From NCBI RefSeq assembly GCF_001514065.1, contig NZ_KQ948422.1:372001-436000 (forward strand): DNA of 64,000 nt, in the 5' to 3' direction. The notes beneath the pieces were generated by a model. That model searched no databases, was not told the DNA's origin, and saw nothing but the letters and a program-made list of their open reading frames with translations. Of the stretch, positions 21,054 through 54,359 are shown one piece after another. Within the stretch, counting starts at the first letter, position 1; each line of letters opens with the position of its first letter. A program made the position numbers and the translations under genes. This stretch comes from Streptomyces antibioticus. GTDB taxonomy: Bacteria > Actinomycetota > Actinomycetes > Streptomycetales > Streptomycetaceae.

Positions 21054-21075
21054 ACCCCGGCCGGACCGTGGCTGC

Positions 21076-37574: not shown

Positions 37575-37581
37575 CAGCCCC

Positions 37582-39004: not shown

Positions 39005-39961
39005 CAGACGGAGACTTGCCGACCCTCGACTGACCGCCGGATTCGCTCAACCCCCGCGGGCGGCCGCCGCGTCCCCCATCTCCGCGGTGTGAGGAGTCGA
39101 CCGGGTCCGGCGCCGCGTGGGCGTTGACCACGACCGCGAGCTTCCGGCCACTGGCCCAGGCGGATCCTTGTCCGTTTCACAGACCTCAGCCGCCGCACGG
39201 CCGAGAAGGGCTTGGCCGTGAAGCGGTATCAACTGCTTTGATGGCAAGCTCCGTTGCAACTCCGTGAACGCTTCTTTAAGGACCCGGCGCCATCGGCTGG
39301 CGGCAACGCCGAGCCGGCTGCATGAGACGTTCACTGCCGCAGACGGCCACACGTGTTCGCATGTCCGCGGTCGGCCGACCGACTCACGACGGCTGTCATG
39401 ACCCCGTCCACTGTGCCACCAGCGCAGATGAAGGCCCCTCCCCATCTCATCGGTGGCCGATAACCGGAGCGGTGTCCCTGCTATTTGCACCTCGCAACAT
39501 TTCGGCCATGCCGGCCTGGCCGAGAGAGTAGCGGCGATAAATAGCCCCAAAAGGGGCGATCGGGTCTGTTTCTCGATCTCGCGCTGCTCATCTCCATCGT
39601 GTACGTTCCGATGGATCGCAGAGATGACTGACACGTTTTGGCCTAAGCAGCGCCCTCCAGAGGAAGGCGCGAGATCGTCACAGGCCTGCCGATTGGTTGG
39701 GGGAGGCGTAAAAGGCATGTCTGCACGACCCTTTGAGCGAGCGCACAACCCCTTTCGGCGATGTAGGGAGACGCTCTGAACGCCAGCCCGGCACCGTATG
39801 GTCCCGGCAGGTTGTTCCAGCGACCGATCACTTGAACGTCACACGTTTTCCGGCGGCTTCCACCTAATACGAAGCCTGTCGCCGATCGCGCTTCTCTCGT
39901 GCCTGATTACCCGGCCGTGTTACGCGCGTCGACTCACAATGACGAATTCTAGGTTCGAAGG
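39005..39961. other. Gene-free region upstream of the NRPS operon
   Basis: No coding frame with actinomycete codon bias is seen over about 950 bp, and base composition is visibly less GC-rich in the right half. A short perfect hairpin GCCCC-AAAA-GGGGC stands at 39544-39557, preceded by ATAAATA. The NRPS promoter is probably in the last 200 bp, but no consensus -35/-10 pair is convincing. Confidence 0.4.
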
Positions 39962-42900
39962 ATGATGGCGAAACTAACGGGGTCCGAGGAATTGTCCCTG
40001 TCAGACATGCTGCGCGCGGCCACCCTCGCCCAGCCCGACCGGACTGCCGTCTCCTGCGGCACGGAGCGGCTGACCTTTCAGCAACTCACTGAGCGCAGCA
40101 AGAACATGGCTGACCACCTGCGGCAACTCGGTGCGGCGACGAACGTACCGGTCGGCATCTTCATGGAGCCGTCCGTCGACCTCATGGTGAGTGTCTGGGG
40201 CGTCCTGCACGCAGGCGCCGCCTACCTGCCGCTGTCGCCGGAGTACCCGGACGAGCGGGTGCGCCACATGCTCGCGGACTCACAGACCAGGGTCATCCTG
40301 ACAGGCGAGTCCTTGGCCTCCCGGCTGGCCGCGATGACACCGCCGGGAACGAAGATCGTCACCGTCGCCCAGACCCAAACCCCCGCGGAAGCAGAGCCGG
40401 ACACGGGGGGCGCCACTCGGTCCGCCCCCGCGCCTGCGCGGAGCGACAGCCTCGCCTACGTCATCTACACCTCGGGGAGCACGGGCAACCCCAAGGGCAT
40501 CGGCATCGAACACCACAGCATCGTCAGCCAGATGCGCTGGCTGGCCGCCGAACAGGGCCTGGACGAACGCAGGACGGTACTGCAGAAGACGCCGCTGAGT
40601 TTCGACGCGGCCCAGTGGGAGATCCTCGCGCCGGCCTGCGGCAGCAGCGTGGTGATGAGCGAACCGGGCCTCTACGCCGACCCCGGCGGGCTCATCGACC
40701 TGATCGTGGCGAACAGCGTCACCACCCTTCAGGGCGTGCCGACGCTGCTACAGGCGCTCGTCGACACCGGACGGCTGTCCGACTGCGCCTCGCTCACGCA
40801 TGTCTTCAGCGGCGGTGAGGCGCTCACCAGGAACCTGGCGATCGAACTGCTCGACGCCTTGCCGGACTTGGAACTGGTCAACCTGTACGGCCCCAGCGAG
40901 TGCACGATCAACGCGTCGGCCCACACCGTGGACCGCAGCACCGTCCAGCACGGTCCGGACCACATCTCCATCGGCCGGCCGGTGCGCGGCATGAGCTTCC
41001 ACATCCTCGACCCCGACCGCCGGCCTGTGGCACACGGTGCATCCGGTGAACTCCACATCGCGGGACGCCAACTCGCCCGCGGCTACCTCAACAACCCCGA
41101 GCTGACGGCGGAACGGTTCATCCCCAACCCGTTCGCCACCGATCCCGAGTCCGCCCGTCTGTACCGCACCGGCGACCTGGCCCGGTGGAACGACGACGGC
41201 ACCGTCCAGTTCCTCGGCCGTACCGACAGCCAGGTCAAGCTGCGCGGCTTTCGGGTCGAGCTGGACGAGATCAAGGTGTCCATCGAGAAGCACGACTGGG
41301 TGAAGCGGGCCGCCGTCCTCGTCCGGAACGACGCCAGAATCGGCGCCAATCTCATCGCCTTCATCGAGCTCGACCCCCAGCGGGCAGCGCTGATGGACCA
41401 GGGCAACCACGGCAACCACCACCAGTCGAAGCAGAGCAGGCTTCAGCTCAAGGCGCAGCTGGCGAATCTGGGTGTCCGTCAGGAGGACGGAGCAGCCGTC
41501 GTCGAGCTGCCCGGACGCTCGGCGACGGCCCGGCAGCGGCGCACGGTGTTCGCCCGCAAGACCTACCGGTTCTACGAAGGGGGCGAGGTCACCCGGGCCG
41601 ACATCATCGACCTGCTCGGCCGCCCGACCGGACAACGGGCCACGCCCCGGGACCCGGACACCCTGACACTGTCCGAACTCGGCACCCTGCTGCGCTACTT
41701 CGGACAGTTCCCCAGCGGCGAACGGCTGCTGCCCAAATACGGGTACGCCTCCCCCGGCTCGTTGTACGCCACGCAGATGTACCTGGAGCTGTCCGGCGTC
41801 GCGGGCCTCGAACCGGGCTACTACTACCACCACCCGATCAACCACCAGCTCGCGCTGATCAGCCCCGCCCCGGTCGGCACGCCGAGGCTGCGCGTCCACT
41901 TCATCGGGCGCCGGTCGGCCATCGAGCCCGTCTACCGCAACAACATCCAGGAAGTCCTCCAGTTCGAAGCCGGTCACATGGTCGGCCTCTTCGACGAGGT
42001 CCTCCCCGAGTACGGGCTGCGGATCAACGCCCGCCCCGCGGCGCCCGAGGTCAAATACGTCCTGCGCTGCCCGGACGAGGACCACTACCTGGCCACGTAC
42101 GAGGTGGAGACGGCCGCTGCCTCTGTCGTCGACAGCGCGGTCGACCTGTATGTGCAGGCCCATCCCGACCGGATCGCCGGCTTGGACAGCGGCCAGTACC
42201 GCTACGACGGCGCCGAACTGGTGCGCGTGTCCGACCACCTGATCCGCAAGCAGGACGTCATCGCCATCAACCAGGAGGTCTACGACCGCGCGAGTTTCGG
42301 CATCAGCATGATCGGCCGGGCGTCCGAACCCTGGCAGCGGTATGTCGACCTCGGCCGTGAACTCCAACGCCTCCAGATGAACGCCCTCGATCTGGGACTG
42401 ATGTCCTCCGGCTACAGCTCGGAGACCGGCAATCCCCTGCCGTCGGCCCGGCGTATCGCGGACATCGTCGGCCTCGGCCCGGACGCGGCCTCCTACTTCG
42501 CCGTCGGCGGCCGCATCAGTGCCGAGCAGCGGCTCAGCGAAGGCATGAAGGAGGACTCCGTCCACATGCGGGGGCCGGCCGAGATCGTCAAGGACAACCT
42601 CGCCGAATCCCTGCCTCCGTACATGGTGCCCAACCGGGTCACCGTCCTGGACTCCTTCCCGCTCACCCCGAACGGCAAGATCGACCACCAGGCCCTGCGC
42701 GAGCTGGACAAGGCCGCCGTGGACGACACCGAGGCACCGGTCGTCCCCCCGCGTACACCCACCGAGGAAGCCATCGCCGCGCTGTGGCGCACGGTGCTCC
42801 GGCAGGAGAGGGTCTCGATCCGGGACAACTTCTTCGCCGCCGGGGGCCACTCGCTGACCGCGGTCAACCTGGTCGGCCGGATCAACCGGGAGCTCGGCAG

Positions 42901-44026
42901 TTCCCTGCCGCTCCAGGTGCTGTTCGACGCGCCGACCATCGCCGAGCTGGCCAGACGCGTCGACCGAGAGCCCGCGACCGCGCTCCCCAGGCTGGTGCGG
43001 CTGCGAGCGGGAGACAGCGGGCGACCGGTGTTCTGCTGGCCCGGGCTGGGCGGCTACCCGATGAGCCTGCGGCTCCTGGCCGGCCGGCTCGACCTGGAGC
43101 GGCCGTTCCTCGGCGTCCAGGCCCACGGCATCAACCCGGGCGAGATCGCCTACCCGACGTTCGACGAGATGGTCGCCAGAGACATCGAACTCGTCCGGCA
43201 GGTCCAACCGGTCGGCCCCTACACCCTCTGGGGCTACTCCTTCGGAGCCCGGGTCGCCTTCGAGGCGGCCCATCAGCTGGAACGCTCCGGCGAGCGGGTC
43301 GACGAGGTGATCCTGATCGCGCCGGGCAAGCCGCCCGTGGAAGTCCGCGACGAGGCGCCCACCGCGGCGGCGGTCAGCTTCACCGACCGCACCTTCGTCT
43401 CGATTCTGTACTCGGTGTTCGCCGGAAACCTCGAGCAGTCGGCGGTCGACGCGTGCCTGGCCGCCACCCACGACGAGGACTCCTTCGTCGCCTTCGTCTG
43501 CGGCCGGTTCGAGCACCTGGAGCGTGAATTGGTGCGCAGGATCGTCGGCGTGGTGCGGCGGACCTTTCTGTTCGAGTACGCCCCTGACGAACTGGCCGAA
43601 CGCAGCGTCCAGGCACCGATCACGGTGTTCCGGGCCGACGGCGACCAGGACTCCTTCCTCGACTCCGGCCACACGCTGTCGAGCACACCCCTCACGACCG
43701 GCCGGCTCAAGGCTGATCACTACGAACTGCTGCGCGCCAACGGAATAGACGAACTCGTCACCGCCATTCAGGCCGCACGACTCCCCAGAAAGGCCTTCGG
43801 AGTGCCTCACGTCAGCATCAAGCATTTCCCGAACAACCTCGAAGCCGACCAGATATCAGCTCTCGTAGACGCGATCACCAGTGCCGTACGGACCGCGTTC
43901 TCGGTCGATGAAGGTGCCGTGTCGATCGCCCTCGAACCGGTGGCCCAGGACGTCTGGACCGAGCGGGTGTACATACCGGAGATCGTCGAAGGCACCGGAA
44001 AACTGGTCAAGGCTCCGAACTACTGA
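39962..44026 (+). CDS. Indigoidine-synthetase-type NRPS (A-Ox-T-TE) with C-terminal tautomerase domain
   Basis: 1354 residues. Adenylation domain 25-435: YTSGSTGNPKG ~167, LSFDAAQWE ~212, NLYGPSECT ~306, YRTGDLARW ~401. By my alignment to GrsA the ten pocket residues read D-A-W-Q-F-G-L-I-N-K, which fits glutamine. An FMN oxidase (nitroreductase/SagB-like) domain of ~320 residues (528-850) is inserted between motifs A8 and A9, exactly as in BpsA/IndC. Then come LPPYMVPNRV and NGKIDHQ (~884-905), carrier domain Ser964 (GGHSL), and thioesterase Ser1093 (GYSFGA) with His1253 (ADHYELL). Residues 1281-1354 are an extra PptA/4-OT-like tautomerase. BpsA-type enzymes cyclise and oxidise L-Gln, giving indigoidine or its monomer. 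No indA/indB neighbours are present. A phosphopantetheinyl transferase must act in trans. Confidence 0.9.
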   Translation: MMAKLTGSEELSLSDMLRAATLAQPDRTAVSCGTERLTFQQLTERSKNMADHLRQLGAATNVPVGIFMEPSVDLMVSVWGVLHAGAAYLPLSPEYPDERVRHMLADSQTRVILTGESLASRLAAMTPPGTKIVTVAQTQTPAEAEPDTGGATRSAPAPARSDSLAYVIYTSGSTGNPKGIGIEHHSIVSQMRWLAAEQGLDERRTVLQKTPLSFDAAQWEILAPACGSSVVMSEPGLYADPGGLIDLIVANSVTTLQGVPTLLQALVDTGRLSDCASLTHVFSGGEALTRNLAIELLDALPDLELVNLYGPSECTINASAHTVDRSTVQHGPDHISIGRPVRGMSFHILDPDRRPVAHGASGELHIAGRQLARGYLNNPELTAERFIPNPFATDPESARLYRTGDLARWNDDGTVQFLGRTDSQVKLRGFRVELDEIKVSIEKHDWVKRAAVLVRNDARIGANLIAFIELDPQRAALMDQGNHGNHHQSKQSRLQLKAQLANLGVRQEDGAAVVELPGRSATARQRRTVFARKTYRFYEGGEVTRADIIDLLGRPTGQRATPRDPDTLTLSELGTLLRYFGQFPSGERLLPKYGYASPGSLYATQMYLELSGVAGLEPGYYYHHPINHQLALISPAPVGTPRLRVHFIGRRSAIEPVYRNNIQEVLQFEAGHMVGLFDEVLPEYGLRINARPAAPEVKYVLRCPDEDHYLATYEVETAAASVVDSAVDLYVQAHPDRIAGLDSGQYRYDGAELVRVSDHLIRKQDVIAINQEVYDRASFGISMIGRASEPWQRYVDLGRELQRLQMNALDLGLMSSGYSSETGNPLPSARRIADIVGLGPDAASYFAVGGRISAEQRLSEGMKEDSVHMRGPAEIVKDNLAESLPPYMVPNRVTVLDSFPLTPNGKIDHQALRELDKAAVDDTEAPVVPPRTPTEEAIAALWRTVLRQERVSIRDNFFAAGGHSLTAVNLVGRINRELGSSLPLQVLFDAPTIAELARRVDREPATALPRLVRLRAGDSGRPVFCWPGLGGYPMSLRLLAGRLDLERPFLGVQAHGINPGEIAYPTFDEMVARDIELVRQVQPVGPYTLWGYSFGARVAFEAAHQLERSGERVDEVILIAPGKPPVEVRDEAPTAAAVSFTDRTFVSILYSVFAGNLEQSAVDACLAATHDEDSFVAFVCGRFEHLERELVRRIVGVVRRTFLFEYAPDELAERSVQAPITVFRADGDQDSFLDSGHTLSSTPLTTGRLKADHYELLRANGIDELVTAIQAARLPRKAFGVPHVSIKHFPNNLEADQISALVDAITSAVRTAFSVDEGAVSIALEPVAQDVWTERVYIPEIVEGTGKLVKAPNY
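43802..44026 (+). CDS. PptA/4-OT-like tautomerase, possible internal in-frame start
   Basis: The last 74 codons of the NRPS frame begin with GTG-CCT (V-P-H-V-S-I-K-H-F-P) and continue ISALVDAITSAVRTAF, GAVSIALEPV and EIVEGTGKLVKAPNY. This matches the full length of PptA-type tautomerases, whose catalytic residue is the N-terminal Pro1. GTG 43802 has AGAAAGG eight bases upstream. Starting here would give a free protein with Pro1 after Met removal, whereas in the fusion Pro is internal. Both products may be made. Overlap with the parent CDS is intentional. Confidence 0.5.
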   Translation: MPHVSIKHFPNNLEADQISALVDAITSAVRTAFSVDEGAVSIALEPVAQDVWTERVYIPEIVEGTGKLVKAPNY

Positions 44027-44086
44027 CGCCGGCCATCGAATTCGACCGGCCACCGGAAAACGAGACATGACATTACGGAGCATCGC

Positions 44087-44695
44087 ATGCGCAGGGTGAT
44101 CAACAGAGCGAGGGAAGACCTCTCCGTGATCGTCGCGCGGGACCCGTCGATCCGCACACGTGCGGAGGCGCTGCTGCATCCCGCGCTGCCCGCGCTGTGG
44201 ACCCACCGGCTGGCACATGTCCTCTACACCCGTGGCCACCGTCAACTCGCCCGGATCCTGGCCTACCTGGCGCGCGCGGTGACCGGCGGCATAGAGATCC
44301 ATCCGGGCGCGACACTGGGCCGGCGCGTGTTCATCGATCACGGGGCCGCGGTGGTCATCGGGGAGACGGCCGAGGTCGGCGACGATGTCACGATCTTCCA
44401 TCAGGTCACGCTGGGCGCGGTCGGCTGGTGGCGGGACGGTCGGCGCGAGCCCGGTGCCCGTCGGCACCCCGTCGTCGGTGACCGGGTGGTGCTCGGCACC
44501 AATGCGATCGTGCTCGGTCCGGTCACCGTCGGCGACGACGCCTTGATCGGCGCCGGTTCGCTCGTACTGGGCGATGTGCCGCCAGGCGCCCGGGTGATGG
44601 CCCCCGCGGCCGAGGTCGTGCCGCGGCTGTCGGCCGCGGATCGCGAGGAGGCGGACCAGTTGCTGCGCGCGCTGGCCACCTCCGGGTGTTGGTGA
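44087..44695 (+). CDS. Serine O-acetyltransferase (CysE-like)
   Basis: 202 residues. A helical N-terminal part (REDLSVIVARDPSIRTRAEALLHPALPALWTHRLAHVLY) is followed by a left-handed beta-helix with hexapeptide repeats. The active-site region is IEIHPGATLGRRVFIDHGAAVVIGETAEVGDDVTIFHQVTLGAVG, with the catalytic His/Asp context of SAT. It acetylates serine to O-acetylserine, the substrate for a beta-replacement enzyme. Here that enzyme is fused to an ATP-grasp domain in the next gene, so this is likely a pathway-dedicated copy rather than the housekeeping cysE. Confidence 0.85.
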   Translation: MRRVINRAREDLSVIVARDPSIRTRAEALLHPALPALWTHRLAHVLYTRGHRQLARILAYLARAVTGGIEIHPGATLGRRVFIDHGAAVVIGETAEVGDDVTIFHQVTLGAVGWWRDGRREPGARRHPVVGDRVVLGTNAIVLGPVTVGDDALIGAGSLVLGDVPPGARVMAPAAEVVPRLSAADREEADQLLRALATSGCW

Positions 44696-44773
44696 CGGCC
44701 CGTTCGCTTCCGTCCCTCCCTCGTCGTTTCTCGTTCCAGCCGACCCTGTGTCGGCATGCCATCGGAGGCAGAG

Positions 44774-47014
44774 ATGATTCACGTCGGTGTCGTGGAGAGC
44801 AACCTCTCCGGATCCGGCTTCGAAGGCCTGCAGATCATCAAGGAACTCGACTGCCGTGTCACCTTCTTCACCCGCGACCTGGACCGCTACCTGGAAGTGC
44901 CGGGCGGCCCGGCCTACTTCGACAACTACGTCGACGAGATCGTCCACTGCGAGACGAACATCTTCGAGGAGCTGCTGCCGCATGTGCACGCGGCCGGGGC
45001 CGAGCAGCCCTTCGACGCGTTCCTGACCCTGGCGGAGTACGACGTGGTCGTCGCCGCCGAGGTAGCGGTCCACCTCGGGCTCCCCACGGTCAGCGTCGAC
45101 GGTGTCGCGACGGCACGCAACAAGGCGTTGATGCGCCGACGCTGCGCCGAACTCGGCGTCGCGATACCAGCGTTCCGCACCGTGCAGAACCCCGCCGAGG
45201 CCGAGGCGGCCGCGGCGGAGATCGGCCTGCCCTGCGTGGTGAAACCCGCCGACGAGACCAGCAGCGCCGACGTCCGGCTGGTGGAGACCGCGGCGCAGGC
45301 CGCCGAGCATGTCGCACTGATCCAGTCCCGGGTGGAGAACACCCGGGGGCAGGCCCGCTACCACGAGCTGATGGTCGAGGAGTACCTGAGCGGTCCCGAG
45401 GTCAGTGTGGAGGTGCTGGCCGACGGCGACCGGTACGAGGTGTTCGGGGTGACCGACAAGTCGGTCGTCGGCCAGGGCTACTTCGTCGAGCTGGCCCACA
45501 GCTTCCCCTCCAGCCTGCCGGAGTCGGTGGTGCGCGCCTGCGGCGACCTGGCCGTGGAAGCGCTCCGCGCGGTCGGGTTCGACCTGGGCATGGCCCACGT
45601 CGAGATCAAGGTGACCGGGTCCGGGCCCAAGCTCATCGAGATCAACCCGAGGCCCGCCGGCGGCAAGATCACCTACCTCGTCGACCGCGCGCTCGGCATC
45701 AAGTCCCTGGAGCTCGTGGCCCGGCAGTACCTCGGGCAGCCGCTGCCGGAGCGGGTGCTGCCCGAGCGGCCGGTCGGCGGCGCCGCCATCCGCTACCTGA
45801 CCGCCCAGGCCGGCCGAGTCGTATCGGTCAGCGGCCGGCAGCGGGCTGCCGCGCTGCCCGGCGTCGAGGAGGTCGTCGTCAAGCCCAAGCCGGGTTCCGT
45901 GGTGCGGGAGTTGCGCCGCAACGGCGACCGGGCCGGTCATGTGCTCGTGGTGGCCGAGACCGCCGAACTCGCGGCGCGCACCGCGGAGGCCGCCGTGCAG
46001 GAGATCAGCATCCGGACCGAGCCGGTCACCCGACGCCCGGTCGCGGACTCCCTGGTCGAGCTGATCGGCGGTACACCACTGCTCCGGCTGCCGGTGCACC
46101 GCATCGTGGACGGTGTCCCGGGCGATGCCGAAGTGCTGGCAAAGCTGGAACTGTTCAACCCCTGGTCCAGCAGCAAGGACCGGGCCGCGCTGTCGATGCT
46201 GCGCGGCGCCGAGGAGCGGGGGCTGCTCACCCCGGGCGACGGCACCGTGATCGAGGCGACCTCGGGCAACACCGGCATCTCGCTGGCCGCGCTGGCGGCG
46301 GCCCGCGGATACCGCTGTGTCATCGTGCTGCCGGACAACGCCACCCAGGAACGGGTGGCCATGCTCCAGTCGCTCGGCGCCGAGGTGATCCGCACCCCGC
46401 ACACGGGTGGTTACCAGGCGGCGGTCGACAAGGCCGAGGAACTCCACCGGCAGACCCCCGGCTCGTGGTTCTGCTGCCAGCACGACAACCCGGACAACAC
46501 ACGGGCGCACTACGAGACGACCGGCCCGGAGATCTGGAACGACGCCGACGGGCGGATCGACGTGTTCGTCTGCGGAGTGGGCACGGGCGGCACGCTCAGC
46601 GGCGCGGGACGGTATCTGCGCGAGAGCCATCCCGCGGTCCGGATCGTGGCGGTGGAACCGGCGGGCTCTCCCCTTCTGTCCGGTGGCGAGCCCGGCACGC
46701 ACACCATCCCGGGCTTCAACGGCGGCTTCATCGCGCCCACCACGGAACGCAACCTCATCGACGAGGTGATCGCGGTATCCGACGCGGACGCACTGGCCAC
46801 CACCCGGCAACTCGCGTTGCGCACCGGCCTGATGGTCGGTGTCTCGGCCGGCGCTGTCGTCCACGCATCCGGTGTCCTGGCCGCCCGTCCGGAATACCGG
46901 GGCCGGCGCATCGTGACCCTGCTGCCCGACACCGGCGAGCGGTACCTGAGCCTGCTCGGCCGCGAGGCCGAGCCGGTATCGGCCGGAGCTGCCGACAGTG
47001 GTGGTGCCCCGTGA
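44774..47014 (+). CDS. ATP-grasp ligase fused to a cysteine-synthase-like PLP enzyme
   Basis: 746 residues from ATG 44774, with GGAGG five bases upstream (ATG 44756 is also possible). Residues ~1-415 are an ATP-grasp carboxylate-amine ligase: PCVVKPADETSSADVRLV, LMVEEYLSGPEVSVEVL, MAHVEIKVTGSGPKLIEINPRPAGGKI with intact metal ligands E/N. Residues ~425-740 are an O-acetylserine sulfhydrylase/CBS-like fold: LVELIGGTPLLRLP, PLP-lysine K468 in FNPWSSSKDRAA, substrate loop EATSGNTGIS, phosphate loop CGVGTGGTLSGAGR. With the adjacent CysE it could make a beta-substituted alanine and couple it to another acid. It overlaps the next gene by 4 bp. I do not know a characterised homologue with this fusion. 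Confidence 0.88.
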   Translation: MIHVGVVESNLSGSGFEGLQIIKELDCRVTFFTRDLDRYLEVPGGPAYFDNYVDEIVHCETNIFEELLPHVHAAGAEQPFDAFLTLAEYDVVVAAEVAVHLGLPTVSVDGVATARNKALMRRRCAELGVAIPAFRTVQNPAEAEAAAAEIGLPCVVKPADETSSADVRLVETAAQAAEHVALIQSRVENTRGQARYHELMVEEYLSGPEVSVEVLADGDRYEVFGVTDKSVVGQGYFVELAHSFPSSLPESVVRACGDLAVEALRAVGFDLGMAHVEIKVTGSGPKLIEINPRPAGGKITYLVDRALGIKSLELVARQYLGQPLPERVLPERPVGGAAIRYLTAQAGRVVSVSGRQRAAALPGVEEVVVKPKPGSVVRELRRNGDRAGHVLVVAETAELAARTAEAAVQEISIRTEPVTRRPVADSLVELIGGTPLLRLPVHRIVDGVPGDAEVLAKLELFNPWSSSKDRAALSMLRGAEERGLLTPGDGTVIEATSGNTGISLAALAAARGYRCVIVLPDNATQERVAMLQSLGAEVIRTPHTGGYQAAVDKAEELHRQTPGSWFCCQHDNPDNTRAHYETTGPEIWNDADGRIDVFVCGVGTGGTLSGAGRYLRESHPAVRIVAVEPAGSPLLSGGEPGTHTIPGFNGGFIAPTTERNLIDEVIAVSDADALATTRQLALRTGLMVGVSAGAVVHASGVLAARPEYRGRRIVTLLPDTGERYLSLLGREAEPVSAGAADSGGAP

Positions 47015-48285
47015 CGACGCCCGGACCCGACGATGACCGGCCCCGCCTGCTGATGGTGATGCCGTACCGCCAGTTCGTGCGCAAGGCACAGGCCGAGGGG
47101 TTCTGGGTCGGTGCGATCTGGGACCCCCGGCTGGAGTCGCCGGAGTACCTCGACGACGTGCGCGCACTGGCCGACCTGTTCGTAACGGCCGACTTCCGGG
47201 ACGCGGAGCTGCTGCGCCGCACCCTGCGCGAAGTGGCCCAGCAGCACCGCGCCACGGTGATCTACCACATCGGCAGGGAAGAGACGATGGTCAGCGCCTA
47301 CGAGGTGGCCGAGGACCTGCACGCCGAGCTCAACCCGGCCGCGGCGATCCGCTTTCTCGCCGACAAGCACGCGATGCGGGAGCTGCTCGCCCGGCGCGGG
47401 CTGTCCCCCGTGTCCTTCGAAGCCGCACCGACGCGGCAGGAGGTGCCGGACGCGGTCGACCGGATCGGCTACCCGGCCGTGGTCAAACCGGCCGCGCTCG
47501 CCGGCAGCCGAGGCGTGTTCCTGTGGCAGGAGGCGCAGGACCGGGCGGCCTGGACCGCGCTCGTCGACCAGTACGGCTACGACGGCCCGTTCCTGGTCGA
47601 GGAGTATCTGCAAGGTCCCGAATACAGCGTGGAGACGCTGAGCAGGGACGGCCGGCACCAGGTCGTCGGTATCACCGAGAAGCTGCTGGGCCCCCCGCCG
47701 CTGTTCGTGGAGGTGGGCCACGTCCATCCGGCGCCGCTGCCGCAGGACCGCCGGCAGGCTGTCGAGGAACTCACCACGGAGTTCCTCACGGCATGCGGGT
47801 ACCGGTTCGGCCCCGCGCACACCGAGGTGATCTGGACGGAGCGCGGCCCGCGCATCGTCGAATCGCAGGCCCGGCTCGGCGGTGACCGGATACCGCGCTT
47901 GGTCGAGTTGGCCACTGGACTGGACATCGAACAGGCGATCTTCGCCGCCCTGGCGGACAGGCCGGCCGAGCCCACCGAGCCGACGGCGACGGCGATCGTG
48001 CGGTTCTTCACCTTCCCGCCCGGCCGCGTCGACGAGATCAGCGGCCTGGAGACAGCCGCTCGCCTCACGCACGTCGACGAGCTGAGCCTCCGGCTGAGCC
48101 CGGGCGACACCGTGCCTGCGGTCCGCGACTCCAAGAGCCGGCACGGGCACGTCATCGTCTCCGGCGCCTCGCCCGAGGAGGCCCGGACCCGTTGTGCGGA
48201 GGTGCTCGCCGCCATCGAGGTCGTCATCGACAACACGCCCGTACGAGCAGACGGTCGCGCCGGGGCGCTCGGGACGCCCGCATGA
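47011..48285 (+). CDS. ATP-grasp domain ligase
   Basis: 424 residues from GTG 47011 (GTGA overlap). ATP-grasp segments are FLADKHAMRELLARRGLSPV, YPAVVKPAALAGSRGVFLW, FLVEEYLQGPEYSVETLSRDG and AHTEVIWTERGPRIVESQARLGGDRI. The last segment has Gln where the usual metal-binding Asn of E-x-N-x-R stands. An N-terminal preATP-grasp Rossmann-like part and a C-terminal domain (SGLETAARLTHVDELSLRLSPGD) are present. It is similar in layout to amino-acid and dipeptide ligases. It probably joins two carboxylate/amine building blocks in the NRPS-associated pathway. Confidence 0.85.
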   Translation: MTTPGPDDDRPRLLMVMPYRQFVRKAQAEGFWVGAIWDPRLESPEYLDDVRALADLFVTADFRDAELLRRTLREVAQQHRATVIYHIGREETMVSAYEVAEDLHAELNPAAAIRFLADKHAMRELLARRGLSPVSFEAAPTRQEVPDAVDRIGYPAVVKPAALAGSRGVFLWQEAQDRAAWTALVDQYGYDGPFLVEEYLQGPEYSVETLSRDGRHQVVGITEKLLGPPPLFVEVGHVHPAPLPQDRRQAVEELTTEFLTACGYRFGPAHTEVIWTERGPRIVESQARLGGDRIPRLVELATGLDIEQAIFAALADRPAEPTEPTATAIVRFFTFPPGRVDEISGLETAARLTHVDELSLRLSPGDTVPAVRDSKSRHGHVIVSGASPEEARTRCAEVLAAIEVVIDNTPVRADGRAGALGTPA

Positions 48286-48329
48286 GCACCGTCGGTCACC
48301 AGTCCCCCCACCCCGAAGAAAGGCAGTGA
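48282..48329 (+). CDS. Tiny 15-codon ORF coupled to the upstream ligase
   Basis: MSTVGHQSPHPEERQ-stop. Its ATG overlaps the stop of the preceding ATP-grasp gene (ATGA). The next tiny ORF starts two bases after its stop. It may only keep ribosomes moving across the spacer. No database family is recognised. Confidence 0.3.
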   Translation: MSTVGHQSPHPEERQ

Positions 48330-48331
48330 CC

Positions 48332-48370
48332 ATGCAGTCGTCCATCCCCCTGACCAGGAGGTCGCCATGA
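48332..48370 (+). CDS. Tiny 12-codon ORF overlapping the third ATP-grasp start
   Basis: MQSSIPLTRRSP-stop, with AAAGG eight bases before its ATG. Its stop overlaps ATG 48367 of the next ligase. The ribosome-binding site of that ligase (CAGGAGG, 48355-48361) lies inside this ORF, so its translation could gate the ligase. A peptide substrate role cannot be excluded. Confidence 0.35.
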   Translation: MQSSIPLTRRSP

Positions 48371-49623
48371 CCACCCCCGCCACTGACGCACAGGTGGTGT
48401 TCGTCGGCTACAACGCGGCCTACCTGCGCGCGATCGACGGGAGCGTGCCCAGCGGGTCGGTCGTGGTGATCGAGGAACCCGACATCATCCGCAAGCGGGA
48501 CCTGCACGACGCGGCGGCACGCTTCGACTGCCTGGACCGGATCGTCCCGGCGAGCTACCAGCAGTCGGCCGAGGCCCTCGACCTGGCGGCCGAACTGACG
48601 GCCGTACGCCCGGTGGCCGCCGTCGTCCCGGGGCTGGAGTACGCGGTGCCGGCCACGGCCGCACTGGCCGAGAAACTCGGGCTGCCGGGCGCGACGGAGA
48701 CGGCCGCGCAGGCGCTGCGGGACAAGGTCCGACTGCGCGAGGTCTCCGGTGCCGGCGGCGTGCGCAATCCGCGCTGGCGCGAGGTGCACGGGCCCGCGGA
48801 CATCGTCGAGTTCGCCGGCGACGGTCCGGTGGTGGTCAAGCCGGCGAACCGGCAGGCGAGTGTCGGCGTGCAGCTGCTGGACTCGGTCGACGCCGCCACC
48901 GCGGCACAGGCGTGGGAGCGGACCTCGTCCGCCGCCGAGTACGAGCAGGTGCCCGACCGGCAGCTGGCGTGGCGCTTCCTCGCCGAGGAACGCCTGCAAG
49001 GTCCCGAGTACAGCGTCGAGGCGCTGGTGCAGCGGGGCGACATCATCTTCGAGAACATCACGGCCAAGACCGTCATCCCGGGGCCGTATCCGGTCGAGCT
49101 CGGCCACCTGCTGCCTGCTCCGCTCGACCGGGACACGCAGACCGCGTTCGAGACGGCCATGCGGGCGCTGGTCGCCGCAACCGGCTTCCAGACGGGCATC
49201 CTGCACGCGGAGTGGATCCTGACCGAGTCGGGCCCGGCGCTGGTCGAATGCGCCGGCCGTTGCCCCGGTGACTACCTGATCGACCTCGTCGACCTGGCCT
49301 ACGGCACACGGATCAGGCTGACCCTCATCGACCTGCTGGCCGGCCGGACGGTCGCCCTGCCCGGATCGGCGCGGCAGACCTCGGCGATCCGGTTCCTGGC
49401 CGCCGAGCCGGGCACCGTGACGAAGGTCGCCGGCCTGGACACCGCGCAGGAGTTGCCCGGCGTCGAGGTCGCGGAGGTGGACGTCGAGGCCGGCCAGGAG
49501 GTCCGGCCGTGGGCGTCCTCCTGGGACCGTGCCGGGCATGTCATCGCGACCGGGCCGGACGCGGACACCACCCGTCAACGCGTCCTGGACGCGGACGCCG
49601 CCATCCGCATCGCTACCGATTGA
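48367..49623 (+). CDS. ATP-grasp domain ligase (second stand-alone)
   Basis: 418 residues. VVFVGYNAAYLRAI begins the preATP-grasp part; GPVVVKPANRQASVGVQLL, FLAEERLQGPEYSVEALVQRG and ILHAEWILTESGPALVECAGRCPGDYLIDLV form the ATP-grasp core. In the last segment the E-x-N-x-R asparagine is replaced by Ala. The C-terminal part VAGLDTAQELPGVEVAEVDVEAGQEV is shared in style with the other two ligases, suggesting ancient duplication. A strong CAGGAGG precedes the ATG. Three ligases in one operon imply at least two amide bonds or alternative substrates. Confidence 0.85.
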   Translation: MTTPATDAQVVFVGYNAAYLRAIDGSVPSGSVVVIEEPDIIRKRDLHDAAARFDCLDRIVPASYQQSAEALDLAAELTAVRPVAAVVPGLEYAVPATAALAEKLGLPGATETAAQALRDKVRLREVSGAGGVRNPRWREVHGPADIVEFAGDGPVVVKPANRQASVGVQLLDSVDAATAAQAWERTSSAAEYEQVPDRQLAWRFLAEERLQGPEYSVEALVQRGDIIFENITAKTVIPGPYPVELGHLLPAPLDRDTQTAFETAMRALVAATGFQTGILHAEWILTESGPALVECAGRCPGDYLIDLVDLAYGTRIRLTLIDLLAGRTVALPGSARQTSAIRFLAAEPGTVTKVAGLDTAQELPGVEVAEVDVEAGQEVRPWASSWDRAGHVIATGPDADTTRQRVLDADAAIRIATD

Positions 49624-49631
49624 GGAAACAC

Positions 49632-50897
49632 ATGTCTGTTCAGTGGCAACGCGTCCGCGGATGGCGCGGGTCCATGCCCGGAGGGTCGGTCGGCCTACGG
49701 CTGGCCGTGATGGCGATGATCGACGCGGTGGGCACCGGTGCCTTCCTGGCCGTCTCCGTGCCCTTCATCACCAGGTCGGTCCACCTGTCGGAGGGCAACC
49801 TCGGTCTCGGCCTGACCCTGTCCGCCGCCATCGCGCTGGGCACGGCGATCCCGATCGGCATCCTGGCCGACCGGATCGGCCCGAAGAAGGTGCTGGTCGG
49901 GGTCAGCCTGTGGCGCTGCGCCTGCTTCGTGGTCTATCCGTTCGTCCAGAACCTGTGGCAGTTCCTGACGGTGGTGTGCCTGCTCGGTCTTGTCGACAAG
50001 GCGGCGGCACCGATGGAACAGGCGCTGGTCGGGCAGGCGACGGCGACCGACGACCGGGTCAGGGTGGTCGCGATCCTCCGTTCGCTGCGCAACGTCGGCT
50101 TCACCGTCGGCGCCCTGCTGGGCGGTATCGGGCTGCTGATCGACACCCGGGCCGGGTACACCGCGATCCTGCTGGTCAACGCCGCCTCCTTCGCCGTGCT
50201 CGCGAGCCTGGCCGCCCGGCTGCCGGTGCTCAGTGCGCCGGCGAAGAGACTGCGTCGGCGCTTCTCGGTCAGTGTGCTGCGGGACGGATCGTTCCTGTCG
50301 TTCACCGGTATCAACGCCGTGCTCACCATGCACATGACCCTGCTGAGCATCGGTATCCCGCTGTGGATCGTCGGACACACCGACGTGTCCTCAGCACTCA
50401 TCTCCCCCCTGGTCGCGGTCAACACCGTGCTCGCGGTCGCCCTCCAGGTGCGGGCCAGCCGGGGCACCGACACCATCGCCGGTGCCGCACGGGCCCTGGT
50501 ATGGGCGGGCATTTCCCTCGCGGTCTGCTGCCTGCTGCTGGTCGCGGCGCCGAAGCTGCCGGTCGTCCTGGCCGTCGGCGTGCTGCTGCTGGCCATGGTC
50601 GCGCTGACCGGCGGCGAGCTCTTCCAGTCCGCCGGCGGCTGGGGCGGCTCCTATCTGCTCGCGGCGCCCGGTCAGGAAGGCGTCTACCTCTCGGTCTTCT
50701 GGCTCGGCGTGGCCATCCAGCAGATCGCGGCACCGGTCCTGGTCAGCGTGGTCGTCACGTCCGGCACCACGGGATGGGTCGTCCTGGCCGCGCTGTTCGC
50801 CGTATGCGGCCTTGCCGCGCCGGCCATCGGCCGATGGGCCCAGGCGCAGGCCGACAGCAGGCCCCAGCCGGACCCGAGCCTGGCCGAAGCCACGTAA
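49632..50897 (+). CDS. MFS transporter, probable exporter of the pathway product
   Basis: 421 residues from ATG 49632, nine bases after the ligase stop, with AGGAAA upstream. About twelve hydrophobic segments; the loop 2-3 motif reads GILADRIGPKKVLVG (MFS motif A). RSLRNVGFTVGALLGG is the motif-C-like region typical of drug:H+ antiporters. Its place inside the biosynthetic operon suggests self-resistance or export of the product. Confidence 0.85.
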   Translation: MSVQWQRVRGWRGSMPGGSVGLRLAVMAMIDAVGTGAFLAVSVPFITRSVHLSEGNLGLGLTLSAAIALGTAIPIGILADRIGPKKVLVGVSLWRCACFVVYPFVQNLWQFLTVVCLLGLVDKAAAPMEQALVGQATATDDRVRVVAILRSLRNVGFTVGALLGGIGLLIDTRAGYTAILLVNAASFAVLASLAARLPVLSAPAKRLRRRFSVSVLRDGSFLSFTGINAVLTMHMTLLSIGIPLWIVGHTDVSSALISPLVAVNTVLAVALQVRASRGTDTIAGAARALVWAGISLAVCCLLLVAAPKLPVVLAVGVLLLAMVALTGGELFQSAGGWGGSYLLAAPGQEGVYLSVFWLGVAIQQIAAPVLVSVVVTSGTTGWVVLAALFAVCGLAAPAIGRWAQAQADSRPQPDPSLAEAT

Positions 50898-50958
50898 CCA
50901 CCCTTGTATGCCGGCTCCGTAGGCGAGTCGGCGAGTTGATCACCACCTAAGGAGAGAC

Positions 50959-51411
50959 ATGTCCGTTCCGCTGTACGTTCCGTCCGGCGAAGGCGAGTTC
51001 GTCAACATCCGGGACACCAAGAGGACGTACCTCAAGCTCACCACAGCGGACTCCGACGGCGAGTTCGGGTTCTTCGAGCACCACATGGCTCCGGAGGCGA
51101 GCGGTGCCAGCCCACACATCCACAAGAAGTCCACCGAGATGTTCTATGTGGTGAAGGGCGAGATCGAGTTCACCATCGGCGACCGCAAGGTGGTGGGTGA
51201 GCCCGGTGCGTTCGCCTACGTTCCCAAGGGCGAGCCGCATGGCTTCACGAACAGGGGCAACGAGGACGCCACGCTGCTGATCATGTTCTACCCGATCTAC
51301 AACCGCGAGGACTACTTCCGCGGCCTGGGTCGCCTGACGGCCAACGGGCGCAACCCCAGCCTTGAGGAGCTGCAGGAGCACATGGCGAAGTACGACCAGT
51401 TCATGGTCTGA
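50959..51411 (+). CDS. Cupin-domain protein
   Basis: 150 residues, a single cupin barrel. Motif 1 SPHIHKKSTEMFYVVKGEIEF (HxH...E) and motif 2 PGAFAYVPKGEPHGFTN (His) supply a complete metal site. It is similar to quercetinase-like small cupins that oxidise, isomerise or simply bind small aromatics. A clear AAGGAGAG precedes the ATG. It is the last gene before the 51435 terminator and probably a tailoring enzyme of the NRPS pathway. Its reaction is unknown. Confidence 0.8.
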   Translation: MSVPLYVPSGEGEFVNIRDTKRTYLKLTTADSDGEFGFFEHHMAPEASGASPHIHKKSTEMFYVVKGEIEFTIGDRKVVGEPGAFAYVPKGEPHGFTNRGNEDATLLIMFYPIYNREDYFRGLGRLTANGRNPSLEELQEHMAKYDQFMV

Positions 51412-51434
51412 CCCGCGAACCCTTGGCAACGAAC

Positions 51435-51467
51435 GGGGCCTGGCATCGGAATCCGATGCCAGGCCCC
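51435..51467. terminator. Very strong hairpin at the end of the NRPS operon
   Basis: Arms GGGGCCTGGCATCGG and CCGATGCCAGGCCCC form a perfect 15-bp stem with loop AAT. It lies 24 bp after the cupin stop and 17 bp before the convergent deaminase stop. It can end transcription from both sides and marks the operon boundary. Confidence 0.85.
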
Positions 51468-51483
51468 GGCGTTCGTGCCGACG

Positions 51484-52032
51484 TCAGTCGCCCGCGCTGT
51501 TCCTGATGCGGAAGCGCCACTGCAACTCACGTACCTGCTCGGCGAGTTCCGGGACCGGACCCGCCACCTCGAGAGCGGGGACGACGTCCTGGATGGACAG
51601 CGGACTCAAGGGCGAGGTGACCGGCACGCCCCACTCGGCCTTCCAGTCCCGGGCCTGCTGGGACGAGCTCGCGTACACGATGCGCCCCAGCCCGGCCCAC
51701 CCGTGCGCGGCAGCACACATCGGGCAGTGCTCACCCGAGGTGTACACGGTCGCCGTGGCCCGCTCCTCGGGGCTCAAGTGGGTGGCGGCCCAGCGGGCGA
51801 GTTCGAACTCGGGGTGCCGCGTCGGGTCGCCCGTGGTGGACTCGCGGTTGCGGTCCTCGGCAAGGATCTTGCCGTCCGCGTCGACGAGCACGGATCCGAA
51901 CGGCCAGTCGCCGGCCTCCACCGCCTCGGCCGCCAGCTCGATGCAGCGGCGCAGATAGGGCAGTTCGGTCTCCTTGACGGTGGTGGCGCTGTCGGTGCCG
52001 CTCTCGGAAAGGTCGTGGTTGTTGAGGGCCAC
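51484..52032 (-). CDS. Nucleoside/nucleobase deaminase (CMP/dCMP deaminase family)
   Basis: 182 residues from GTG 52032, with GGAG five bases upstream. The zinc site is HPEFELARWAA (H-x-E) and TSGEHCPMCAAAHGW (P-C-x-x-C), both complete. The N-terminal TELPYLRRCIELAAEAVEAGDWPFGSVLVDADG is typical of guanine/cytosine deaminase-like and TadA-like proteins. It is longer at the C-terminus than TadA. It is transcribed convergently to the NRPS operon and separated by the terminator, so it probably does not belong to that pathway. The LLM gene lies 28 bp upstream on the same strand. Confidence 0.82.
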   Translation of the reverse strand: MALNNHDLSESGTDSATTVKETELPYLRRCIELAAEAVEAGDWPFGSVLVDADGKILAEDRNRESTTGDPTRHPEFELARWAATHLSPEERATATVYTSGEHCPMCAAAHGWAGLGRIVYASSSQQARDWKAEWGVPVTSPLSPLSIQDVVPALEVAGPVPELAEQVRELQWRFRIRNSAGD

Positions 52033-52060
52033 TGTGGCTCCGTCTCTTCGGGGGTGTCGG

Positions 52061-52897
52061 CTATGAGCGGTGCGCGGCCACGGTCGCCAGTGCCTGCCAC
52101 GCCGCCTCGGGCCGCAGGGTCTCGTCGGGATCGCCGTGGTACGGATCGAGCAGCACGGTTTCGGCACCGGCCAGACGCAACTCCTCGATGTCCTCGAGAA
52201 TCTGCTCGATGGTGCCCTCGCCGGCCCGGCGATCCGGGTCGTCGATCGGCTTTTCCGTGAGCCGGAGATAGATACGGGGTGCCAACTCCGGCACCGGCTG
52301 GTCGAGCTCGGCCGAAATTCCCTTCAGCCGGTCCACTGCGTCCCTGAACCAGGGCATCGTGAACCGCAGTGGATGCCATGGAGAACCAAAACGCACGGCC
52401 CGTCGTATTGCGGCGTCGCTGTTACCACCGACCCAGATCGGAATCTGCCCGCAGCCATAGTCGGCGTCGTCTTCCCATACCGCGCGCAGGGTCCGCAGGA
52501 GTTCGTCGGTCAGCGCGCCACGCCGTTCGAACGGGACGCCCAGCGCCTCGAATTCGTCCCGCGCCCAACCCACTCCGACGCCGAGGATCAGTCGGCCGCC
52601 GCTGAGTTGCTGCAGGTTGGCCGCCGTGCGGGCGACCAGCAGGGGATGCCGGTAGGGCGCGATGAGCACCGTCGTGCCCAGCTTTATCCTGGTCGTGATT
52701 CCGGCCAGCCAGGCAAGAGTTGTGACAGGTTCGTAAAATGGAGCGGGGTATTGTTTGGCGACGTCCGATGTGATCGCCACATGGTCGGAGAGCATCAACA
52801 GGTCGAAACCGAGACCCTCCGAGGTTTTGGCCCAGCGGGCCAGATTGTCCGGGGTCGCGCCCGGACCGAAGTTGGGGACATTCACGCCTATCCGCAT
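52061..52897 (-). CDS. LLM-class F420-dependent oxidoreductase
   Basis: 278 residues from ATG 52897. MRIGVNVPNFGPGATPDNLARWAKTSEGLGFDLLMLSDHVA is a typical F420-dependent LLM start. KLGTTVLIAPYRHPLLVARTAANLQQLSGGRLILGVGVGWARDEFEALGVPFERRG and IPIWVGGNSDAAIRRAVRFG complete the family pattern. Such enzymes transfer hydride between F420 and small organics. It is probably co-transcribed with the deaminase downstream. Confidence 0.82.
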   Translation of the reverse strand: MRIGVNVPNFGPGATPDNLARWAKTSEGLGFDLLMLSDHVAITSDVAKQYPAPFYEPVTTLAWLAGITTRIKLGTTVLIAPYRHPLLVARTAANLQQLSGGRLILGVGVGWARDEFEALGVPFERRGALTDELLRTLRAVWEDDADYGCGQIPIWVGGNSDAAIRRAVRFGSPWHPLRFTMPWFRDAVDRLKGISAELDQPVPELAPRIYLRLTEKPIDDPDRRAGEGTIEQILEDIEELRLAGAETVLLDPYHGDPDETLRPEAAWQALATVAAHRS

Positions 52898-52984
52898 GAC
52901 CACAACACTAGCAACTGCGCATGTTTGGCGTGCAGTTGTCGGCAAGGATTTCGGCGGAGCGAAAGCACGAGGAGTCGGGGCCGG

Positions 52985-54217
52985 TCAGTTGTCCTGAGGA
53001 GCATCGCAATTCCTCGAATCCGGCCGGTGTGCTGTGCGGAGGTCCGGGAGGAGGAATACGGCCAGAACAGCCGCCGTCGCCGGGAAGAGGGCGGACGGGC
53101 CACCGAGGGAGAGCAGAGGGCCGCCCGCGAGCGAGCCGATTCCGGTACCGCCGTCGAAGGCGATGTTCCACGCGACCCCGGCCACGCCGAGACCGGTCGG
53201 GCTGTCCCCGGCCGCCTGCAGGGCGAGCACCAGGGTGGCACTCTGGACCGCGCCGAAGCCCGCTCCGAAAAGGGCCGTACCGGCCAGCAACAGGGCCGGC
53301 GCGTGAGAGGCGGCTCCCGCGGCAGTGCCGAGCGTGGTGACCACTACGGCAGGGATCAGCACCGGGCGGCCGCCGTACCGGTCGATGAGCCACCCGGCGC
53401 CGAGCCGGGAGAGCACGGTGGAGACCTGCGCGGCAAGCAGCGCCTGGGGCGCGGCCGAGGCGGTCAGCGGCAGGAAGGTGTAGACGACGCCGTAAGCCGT
53501 GGTGGAGGCGGTCTCCACCATCAGGGGGCCGGTCATGGGACGCAGCGACCGCCATGTTCCGTGCAGGGTCCGTGGGCGGTGGGAACGAGGTCCGGCCGGG
53601 CGGACGGGCGCTGCGGCGCGAGGAAAGCCGAACGAGCCGACGAGGACCAGAGCAGCCGTGCCCGCCGCCAGGGCGAAGGCGGCCGCGTACGCCTCCTGCC
53701 GGGCCAGGGCGATGCCCAGCGGAGCCCCCAGGACGCCGGCGCAGCCGACCACCGCGCCGTACCAGCCGATGCCTCGTCCCCGGCTGCCGGACGGGAACAA
53801 CTCCGCGGTGAAGGTGACACCGGCGACGACGAACACGCCGAAGCCCAGCCCGCGCACTGCCGCGAGGCCGGTGAGGGCGGGAAGTGTGGAGGCAGCCGGC
53901 AGAACCAGGCATGGCAGCCCGAGCAGCGCACCGCTCATGGCGAGTGAGTGCCGCCGCCCGAGCCGGGCGAAGAGCCACGGCGTGCAGGGCTGGACGACCA
54001 AGGTGGCCGCCATCAGGGTGGCGGTGAGCGCTCCGGCGCCCGACGGTCCGGCGCCGGAGCGGACGGCGTACGCGGGCATCGCGGAGAGCATCAGATTGAA
54101 GCTGGCGAAGCCACCGAACGCGGCGATCAGGGCGCCGGCCATCGCTGCCCGCCTCCGCCCCGCGGAGGGCGCCGGGGACCGGCCGGTTGACGCGGAGGGG
54201 TCTGCCGGCGCGCTCAT
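52985..54217 (-). CDS. MFS transporter
   Basis: 410 residues from ATG 54217 with twelve hydrophobic segments. The A motif is LFARLGRRHSLAMSGALLG, and GFGVFVVAGVTFTAELFPSGSRGRGIGWYGAVVG belongs to helices 4-5. It is proline/serine-rich at the N-terminus. It resembles sugar-phosphate/drug efflux-type actinomycete MFS proteins, and the substrate is unknown. It lies 142 bp downstream of the solute-binding protein gene, on the same strand, and could be co-transcribed with the sulfur unit. Confidence 0.85.
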   Translation of the reverse strand: MSAPADPSASTGRSPAPSAGRRRAAMAGALIAAFGGFASFNLMLSAMPAYAVRSGAGPSGAGALTATLMAATLVVQPCTPWLFARLGRRHSLAMSGALLGLPCLVLPAASTLPALTGLAAVRGLGFGVFVVAGVTFTAELFPSGSRGRGIGWYGAVVGCAGVLGAPLGIALARQEAYAAAFALAAGTAALVLVGSFGFPRAAAPVRPAGPRSHRPRTLHGTWRSLRPMTGPLMVETASTTAYGVVYTFLPLTASAAPQALLAAQVSTVLSRLGAGWLIDRYGGRPVLIPAVVVTTLGTAAGAASHAPALLLAGTALFGAGFGAVQSATLVLALQAAGDSPTGLGVAGVAWNIAFDGGTGIGSLAGGPLLSLGGPSALFPATAAVLAVFLLPDLRTAHRPDSRNCDAPQDN

Positions 54218-54359
54218 CGCCACCCGGCTGTGCGCAGAGCTCTGATCGAGGCGGGCCGGTCCATCATGCCCATGTCGTACACCCAACCTCCCGAACAGGG
54301 TTCAGCCCTCTCCGGCGCCCCGCGGATGGAGAAGGCGAGGCCCCGGAAAGGGCAGGGCA

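Follow-up and report, generated by a model that had tools for sequence, protein, structure and literature searches.

A conserved Streptomyces operon in which an indigoidine-type synthetase meets CysE, a CysK-like fusion and ATP-grasp ligases, with a probable internal start for its tautomerase

A seven-gene operon is located in a 64,000-nucleotide stretch of the Streptomyces antibioticus genome (contig NZ_KQ948422.1, positions 372,001 to 436,000; the whole stretch is termed the window). It joins an indigoidine-type nonribosomal peptide synthetase (NRPS) to a serine O-acetyltransferase (CysE), a fusion of an ATP-grasp ligase with a cysteine-synthase-like (CysK-like) domain, two more ATP-grasp ligases, a major facilitator superfamily (MFS) transporter and a cupin. 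The operon is real and conserved. On balance, its sequences point to the biosynthesis of a small exported peptide that would contain a new amino acid derived from glutamine and serine, and the tautomerase at the C terminus of the NRPS probably has a second, free form with an N-terminal proline, translated from inside the NRPS gene.

A conserved seven-gene operon

The seven genes are arranged head to tail on the plus strand at 39962–51411, with intergenic gaps of −4 to 81 bp. The NRPS is composed of an adenylation (A) domain with an inserted flavin mononucleotide (FMN)-type oxidase (Ox), a thiolation (T) domain, a thioesterase (TE) and the tautomerase.

39962..44026, plus strand: indigoidine/minimycin-type NRPS (Pfam); A domain with inserted FMN oxidase at about residues 514–866, T (Ser964), TE (Ser1093), C-terminal tautomerase
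43787..43793, plus strand: Shine–Dalgarno-like AGAAAGG within the NRPS frame, 8 nt upstream of the internal start
43802..44026, plus strand: internal GTG start with the catalytic proline codon next; candidate free tautomerase (start codon at 31 of 31 loci)
44087..44695, plus strand: CysE with a C-terminal SGCW tail (NCBIfam cysE/EpsC profiles)
44756..47014, plus strand: fusion of an ATP-grasp L-amino-acid ligase (LAL_C2) with a cysteine-synthase-like, pyridoxal phosphate (PLP)-type domain at 46040–47014 (Pfam, alignment-column analysis)
47011..48285, plus strand: ATP-grasp ligase 2 (LAL_C2; Pfam), with a GTG start and a 4-bp overlap with the fusion gene
48367..49623, plus strand: ATP-grasp ligase 3 (LAL_C2; Pfam)
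49632..50897, plus strand: MFS transporter, probable exporter (Pfam)
50959..51411, plus strand: single-domain cupin (Cupin_2), HxH, E and H motif kept in aligned relatives (Pfam, alignment)

All three ligases contain ATP-grasp_4 and LAL_C2 domains in Pfam, and their NCBIfam matches to bacilysin/dapdiamide-type ligase profiles lie far under the cut-offs.

A pattern-based scan with the fusion protein across a collection of 84,980 genomes returned 22 loci, 15 of which (L016–L030) carry the fusion, the other seven (L031–L037) being distant ATP-grasp or CysK matches only. Together with the window and two further loci (G052 = L038 and G363 = L074), and with genome matches G120, G121, G134 and G162 treated as repeats of loci already counted, the fusion is found at 18 distinct loci, 17 of Streptomyces type and one from Phytohabitans. 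L018 ends at a contig edge after ligase 2; at 16 of the remaining 17 uncut loci all seven genes are present in the same order, and this order is therefore beyond chance. L021 (Streptomyces sp. WM6386; 14881–22229) has the operon through the MFS gene, with no cupin, deaminase or luciferase-like match within the stretch examined. Ligase 3 and the MFS gene have frame breaks in L027 (Phytohabitans; 13482–15997), possibly sequencing errors, and in L016 an additional 1.5 kb separates ligases 2 and 3. A CysK at least 85% identical to that of the window is found in 7 of 343 genomes of the genus, each time in a frame long enough for the fusion; a phylum-wide survey, with the NRPS in 5 of 396 genomes including the window’s own, added little.

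The first-pass annotation of this DNA had described a packed plus-strand operon of seven genes and had proposed surveying genomes for co-occurrence of their families. Each gene stands at its described place and strand, with its family confirmed by Pfam or NCBIfam, and the 16 of 17 uncut loci bear out the co-occurrence. The inventory held for these seven genes and overlooked the C-terminal tautomerase of the NRPS and the linked convergent genes downstream.

Glutamine selection by the NRPS

By its sequence the NRPS is a glutamine-selecting enzyme of the indigoidine type. Pfam matches to AMP-binding, PP-binding and thioesterase domains give the A(Ox)-T-TE architecture; the Ox region has no convincing Pfam match, and its AlphaFold2 model (13 sequences, mean predicted local distance difference test score 79.5) matches FMN nitroreductase-fold proteins including the NRPS oxidase BmdC, ThcOx and McbC. 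The first nine pocket positions read DAWQFGLIN, the code for L-Gln, in 43 of 47 NRPS rows (five of them duplicates), the exceptions being L042, L090 and L092, each one letter off, and L079, which is without its N terminus. Among rows linked to IndA (family membership assigned by a Pfam run on one representative), the code is present in 8 of 10, with L092 and L079 again the exceptions. Residues R532, Y658 and S1093 are conserved in 48 of 48 rows, duplicates included. Tyr658 is the window counterpart of Tyr665, presumably a functional residue. R532 and S1093 align with R539 and S1102 of IdgS, the Ox and TE residues given as essential in excerpts of the mutational study (PMC10989907); the numbering was checked on a Streptomyces lavendulae protein (L104, 1283 residues), which has R539 and S1102 at the mutated IdgS positions. 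According to the same excerpts, the product set free by the TE of IdgS is (S)-3-aminopiperidine-2,6-dione, which the Ox domain oxidises afterwards (PMC10989907).

The code and catalytic residues uphold the first-pass view of an indigoidine-type, glutamine-using NRPS. The absence of indA/indB-type partners also stands: Pfam found neither IndA nor IndB families among the operon genes, and the sole Indigoidine_A (PF04227) match of the genome lies, unlinked, on another contig.

A probable internal start for the tautomerase

The C-terminal tautomerase scores 19 bits in Pfam, just below the 22-bit cut-off, and is 59% identical to the tautomerase of L042. We infer its probable synthesis as a free protein from the start codon, a Shine–Dalgarno-like site and codon controls. 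At all 31 distinct loci in which the tautomerase frame is open for more than 300 codons upstream, the codon preceding the catalytic proline is a start codon (GTG 21, ATG 8, TTG 2), as found with a search pattern that requires the proline and to which domains lacking it are invisible; the set includes IndA-linked loci, Streptomyces clavuligerus, Streptomyces mirabilis, two Rhizobium plasmids and L022. In the same frames, 4.2% of all in-frame codons are start codons, GTG being 35% of valine and TTG 2.7% of leucine codons (27 of the 31 loci), and the Val/Ile codon two residues after the proline is GTC at 23 loci, ATC at 6 and GTG at 2. ATG, GTG and TTG interchange among lineages, always inside the start-codon set, these counts not being independent of ancestry. 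Among 17 operon NRPSs (L022 excluded), one of the 25 conserved valine columns with GTG in the window keeps this codon in every row; the start column is GTG in 15 and ATG in 2. In L022 (Streptomyces fulvorobeus; 5200–9260) the NRPS frame is broken near the end of the TE, possibly by a sequencing error, with the tautomerase start and frame intact.

The 17 bases upstream of the start pair with the 16S tail at a median energy of −8.1 kcal/mol; 3.7% of 1613 other in-frame positions reach this value, as do 3.9% of 414 other start codons in frame. The Shine–Dalgarno site coincides with an AGA codon at 12 of the 18 operon loci, AGA accounting for 1.7% of arginine codons there. With such a start, a tautomerase nominally ‘fused’ to an NRPS could still have the free N-terminal proline needed for catalysis. 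The tautomerase itself was rejected as a novelty, as fused and discrete forms beside indigoidine synthetases are described in published excerpts (PMC5818174, PMC3992020, PMC12766979, PMC5014874); no report of a tautomerase start within the NRPS gene was found in the portions of the open PMC literature that were searchable.

CysE and the CysK-like domain

CysE, a hexapeptide acetyltransferase, scores 175 bits against NCBIfam cysE (below the cut-off of 210.65) and 166.5 bits against EpsC (above the cut-off of 150). The CysK-like domain retains the PLP lysine, the TSGNT loop and Gln142, is 45–49% identical to four solved cysteine synthases and to L044, the genome’s best other match, and scores 346.5 bits in one scan and 343.6 in another against the cysteine synthase profile (cut-off 344.15). 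The operon pair comes on top of other copies in the genome, namely eight additional CysK-type matches and one additional CysE.

The positions of Met119, Phe143 and Ala231, which excerpts of a structural study place in the ligand cleft of cysteine synthase (PMC3805590), are not kept as in OASS-A. Among 48 cluster CysK rows, 18 of them from the fusion operon (Salmonella typhimurium numbering, assigned by alignment), Phe143 is replaced by His in 45 and Asp in 3, Gly230 by Asn in 44 and Ala231 by Gly in 45; in all 48, Gln227 is replaced by Pro, Met119 by Tyr, Phe or Leu, and the proline preceding TSGNT by Ala, Ser or Cys. The His-Asn-Gly combination is present in 44 of the 48 rows, the exceptions being L072 and three second copies (L043, L067 and L073), and in none of five comparison rows. 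It is absent from L044 and from the five rows dropped from the column counts and inspected separately (L034, L036, L046, L047 and L048). The CysK tree has very long branches for the distant paralogues and serves for orientation only.

CysE ends in tryptophan in 36 of 43 cluster CysEs (leaving out L095, L096 and the non-cluster L052), usually as SGCW or AGSW, and the genome’s other CysE does not. The canonical CysE C terminus, which ends in isoleucine, occupies the CysK cleft in the same structural excerpts (PMC3805590). The tryptophan tail and the changed cleft together suggest a re-tuned CysE/CysK complex.

Two other assignments of the CysK-like domain were rejected. The O-ureidoserine synthase DcsD, considered as its closest relative, scores 214.6 bits, with 47 PDB sequences higher among the matches listed, and the SbnA family of the diaminopropionate route (SbnA/SbnB) scores 226.4 bits against a cut-off of 349.95.

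Recurrence beside indigoidine-type NRPSs

Across the 343 genomes of the genus, the Ox domain is found in 54, the cluster-type CysK in 39 and both in 19, against 6.1 expected (naive hypergeometric P 1.9e-7, at cut-offs of E 1e-40 for Ox and 1e-110 for CysK, with shared ancestry ignored). The two lie at most 20 kb apart in 16 of the 19 genomes, seven of which have the window-type operon, and on separate contigs in G038, G201 and G348.

Several loci contain a core that the first-pass account of the gene set had overlooked: an NRPS–tautomerase, an EamA transporter, CysE and CysK in bacteria whose loci have no ATP-grasp match in the stretch examined. L042 (G056) has this core followed by a cupin. 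L099 (S. clavuligerus plasmid pCLA1; 7618–15350) has it followed by a protein of the Questin_oxidase family, which we take to be the former DUF4243. In another phylum, the Rhizobium Ti plasmid pTiB21/90 (L102:4510–13948) and R. rhizogenes K84 pAtK84c (L103:4507–13954) contain an indigoidine-type NRPS, a DMT/EamA transporter, CysK, a cupin, a nickel permease, a phosphopantetheinyl transferase and CysE; a text search of a Ti-plasmid paper (PMC10410297) yielded nothing. Other loci do contain ligases: two or three ATP-grasp-like genes are present in each of L054, L055 and L061, and L056–L060 combine an indigoidine-type NRPS, CysK, ATP-grasp enzymes and an AMP ligase with a probable 4-aminophenylalanine gene set (in L058, chorismate mutase, aminodeoxychorismate-synthase-like and prephenate-dehydrogenase-like genes).

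Among all loci collected, homologues of the L099 Questin_oxidase protein (55–58% identical) are found only in L079, L082, L083, L084, L087 and L100, all of which have an indigoidine-type NRPS and all but L100 also IndA. MinC of the minimycin pathway is described in excerpts as HAD plus DUF4243 (PMC8724604). L099 thus appears to follow the minimycin logic with alanine instead of ribose, CysE/CysK occupying the place of the C-glycosynthase before this ring enzyme. Such an arrangement speaks for a carbon-linked aminopyridinedione-alanine as the CysK product at this locus.

Cluster-type CysE/CysK pairs also occur with asparagine synthase, PrpF, an acyl-CoA dehydrogenase and mostly an amidohydrolase (L043, L063–L068 and L072; Pfam on L063), L067 having no amidohydrolase in the stretch examined; these genes are perhaps another module for a cyclic-imide nucleophile. 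In further clusters the CysE/CysK pair is accompanied by three ATP-grasp-like genes, an FMN reductase and an MFS transporter, and L039, L061 and L062 additionally encode a discrete tautomerase. One alanylating CysE/CysK module fed by different nucleophile modules is our hypothesis for this pattern.

Convergent genes and flanking sequence

Downstream, a hairpin and minus-strand genes face the operon.

51435..51467, no strand given: 15-bp hairpin, terminator between convergent genes (RNA fold)
51484..52167 (longest frame; coding-model start 52032), minus strand: cytidine-deaminase-fold protein (Pfam)
52061..52945, minus strand: luciferase-like flavin monooxygenase (Pfam)
52985..54286, minus strand: second MFS-like transporter, adjoining the operon in some, not all, relatives (not scanned with Pfam)

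The convergent luciferase-like and deaminase-like genes belong with the operon. An orthologue of the former adjoins it in 7 of 7 operon genomes, and a weaker homologue (64–68%) is found in 4 of 32 other genomes, a hand-picked, not random, comparison set; in locus maps the deaminase-like gene follows the same pattern, adjoining the operon in most Streptomyces-type loci. Neither was seen beside the operon in L027 (Phytohabitans) or L021. The longest frames of the two genes overlap by 107 bases, an overlap removed by the coding-model deaminase start at 52032.

The 15-bp-stem hairpin that closes the operon in the first-pass annotation is confirmed by RNA folding (−48.2 kcal/mol, z −6.1), though it is without a T-run; the pattern scan did not list it. 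An Rfam scan of 37000–54500 gave no match, on which riboswitch control was rejected, and no sigma-70-type promoter was found upstream of the NRPS from 39500 onward. The coding model calls no gene in the approximately 2.4 kb 5′ of the operon (37575–39961), which also has no Rfam match.

Proposed pathway and alternatives

In the pathway that we favour, the NRPS would load L-Gln, its TE would release 3-aminopiperidine-2,6-dione and the Ox domain would oxidise it, as the conserved residues and the published IdgS chemistry suggest. The tautomerase, probably also translated alone, would convert the product into an aromatic aminodihydroxypyridine nucleophile, preventing dimerisation to indigoidine. 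CysE would make O-acetylserine, from which the CysK-like domain would form an aminoacrylate and join it to the nucleophile, most likely by a bond to carbon, yielding a pyridinyl-alanine. This amino acid would next be activated or received by the ATP-grasp half of the same protein, the fusion of ligase and CysK arguing that one half feeds the other, and the two further ligases would add residues. The cupin, deaminase and luciferase-like enzyme may tailor the ring or the peptide, which the MFS protein would export; a deaminase that turned the ring amine into a hydroxyl could yield a hydroxypyridinone chelator. Minimycin offers what appears to be the closest precedent for the monomer as a carbon nucleophile: according to excerpts of a review, the monomer can be tautomerised by the NRPS tautomerase domain and is then a C-glycosynthase substrate (PMC8724604).

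Several observations weigh against this pathway. By sequence, true cysteine synthases are the nearest relatives of the CysK-like domain (311 bits for the best PDB match, against 214.6 for O-ureidoserine synthase), which is 47.5% identical to Mycobacterium tuberculosis CysK with the TSGNT loop kept, and the 48 cluster rows were fetched for likeness to it. The genome’s other CysK-type proteins (L044 and L046–L048) also depart from the four solved enzymes at the cleft, in different ways, so the cleft change alone proves no new function. Seven of the 43 CysE tails are without tryptophan (L054; L056–L059, with the frame end of L059 uncertain; and L102 and L103 from Rhizobium, which end in isoleucine), and the ordinary CysE of the genome, at 60% identity, is as similar to the window CysE as are many cluster CysEs. 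The co-occurrence statistics take no account of shared ancestry, and an Ox match is missing from 20 of the 39 genomes with CysK; ligases and CysK of this type thus occur without an indigoidine-type NRPS, and the CysK nucleophile need not be an aminopyridinedione. The window also has no minimycin-type ring oxidase. The ring oxidase of L099 strengthens the nucleophile argument more than the paralogue residues weaken the cleft argument. The first-pass idea that the CysK-like domain adds a nucleophile to O-acetylserine gains from the recurrence of CysE/CysK beside indigoidine-type NRPSs, L099 included, and the interpretation as a whole is partly supported.

The retained TSGNT loop and lysine, and a score at the level of a cysteine synthase (346.5 against 344.15), would also fit a simpler role in which CysE and CysK merely supply extra L-cysteine, ligated into the peptide by the ATP-grasp enzymes or added through its thiol to the aminopyridinedione. 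We consider this rather unlikely: the cleft residues of the four solved enzymes are replaced in a common manner, further CysK-type and CysE genes are present in the genome, and the S. clavuligerus CysK is paired with a minimycin-type ring oxidase. Somewhat less likely again is an NRPS unit that stays 3-aminopiperidine-2,6-dione, or an oxidised form of it, with only its amino group acylated by the ATP-grasp enzymes and the CysK product forming a separate residue of the same peptide. The IdgS study documents TE release of the (S)-dione and names natural products that contain it, such as padanamide B (PMC10989907); the Ox residues are intact, however, and cores without ATP-grasp matches still couple the NRPS to CysE/CysK. 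Ordinary indigoidine synthesis beside genes unrelated to it, for which the architecture and active-site residues of an indigoidine synthetase speak, was rejected on gene content and is highly improbable, given the seven-gene order at 16 of 17 uncut loci, an operon without IndA or IndB families and the ligase–CysK fusion.

Comparison with known systems

The combination of an indigoidine-type NRPS with cysteine synthase and ATP-grasp enzymes was not found in the searchable portions of the open PMC literature, and a report behind a journal subscription may have escaped notice. Should the favoured pathway be right, the indigoidine monomer would have a third fate besides dimerisation and C-ribosylation, many Streptomyces and some Rhizobium plasmids would be expected to encode new amino acids and peptides, and PLP enzymes that form carbon or nitrogen bonds from O-acetylserine could be found by a sequence signature. 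More tentatively, and with somewhat less than even confidence, we propose a route that is both widespread and modular: a CysE/CysK pair dedicated to it (mostly Trp-tailed CysE and His-Asn-Gly CysK) may alanylate cyclic-imide or dihydroxypyridine nucleophiles from interchangeable modules, the indigoidine-type NRPS here and asparagine synthase/PrpF/amidohydrolase or others elsewhere. Such a route, with an in-frame nested NRPS tautomerase translated from its own start to expose the catalytic proline, might yield ATP-grasp peptides and a large unseen class of heteroaryl-alanines, perhaps including, in S. clavuligerus, an oxazinedione-alanine as minimycin’s amino-acid counterpart.

The window NRPS shares its tautomerase, catalytic residues, Gln code and architecture with the minimycin (MinA–MinB–MinC) and indigoidine (IndC/BpsA/IdgS) systems; where those systems have a C-glycosynthase (IndA/MinB), a HAD/DUF4243 enzyme and UPRT, the operon has CysE, the CysK-like domain and ATP-grasp enzymes. 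With the D-cycloserine pathway, in which the presumed roles are those of DcsE, the O-ureidoserine synthase DcsD and the ATP-grasp enzyme DcsG, it would share the joining of an acetylated serine to a non-sulfide nucleophile by a CysK relative alongside an ATP-grasp enzyme; unlike that pathway, it has a CysE-type acetyltransferase, LAL-type ligases and an NRPS, and its CysK domain is not close to DcsD. The ATP-grasp ligases BacD of bacilysin and DdaF of dapdiamide have related profiles, and the operon differs in having three ligases, one of them fused to CysK. Plants make β-substituted alanines of the mimosine/willardiine type from O-acetylserine, and the chemistry proposed here, a heterocycle added to an aminoacrylate, would be alike, in a bacterial operon fed by an indigoidine-type NRPS; the open PMC searches turned up no example of this kind. 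The individual parts of the operon are known ones.

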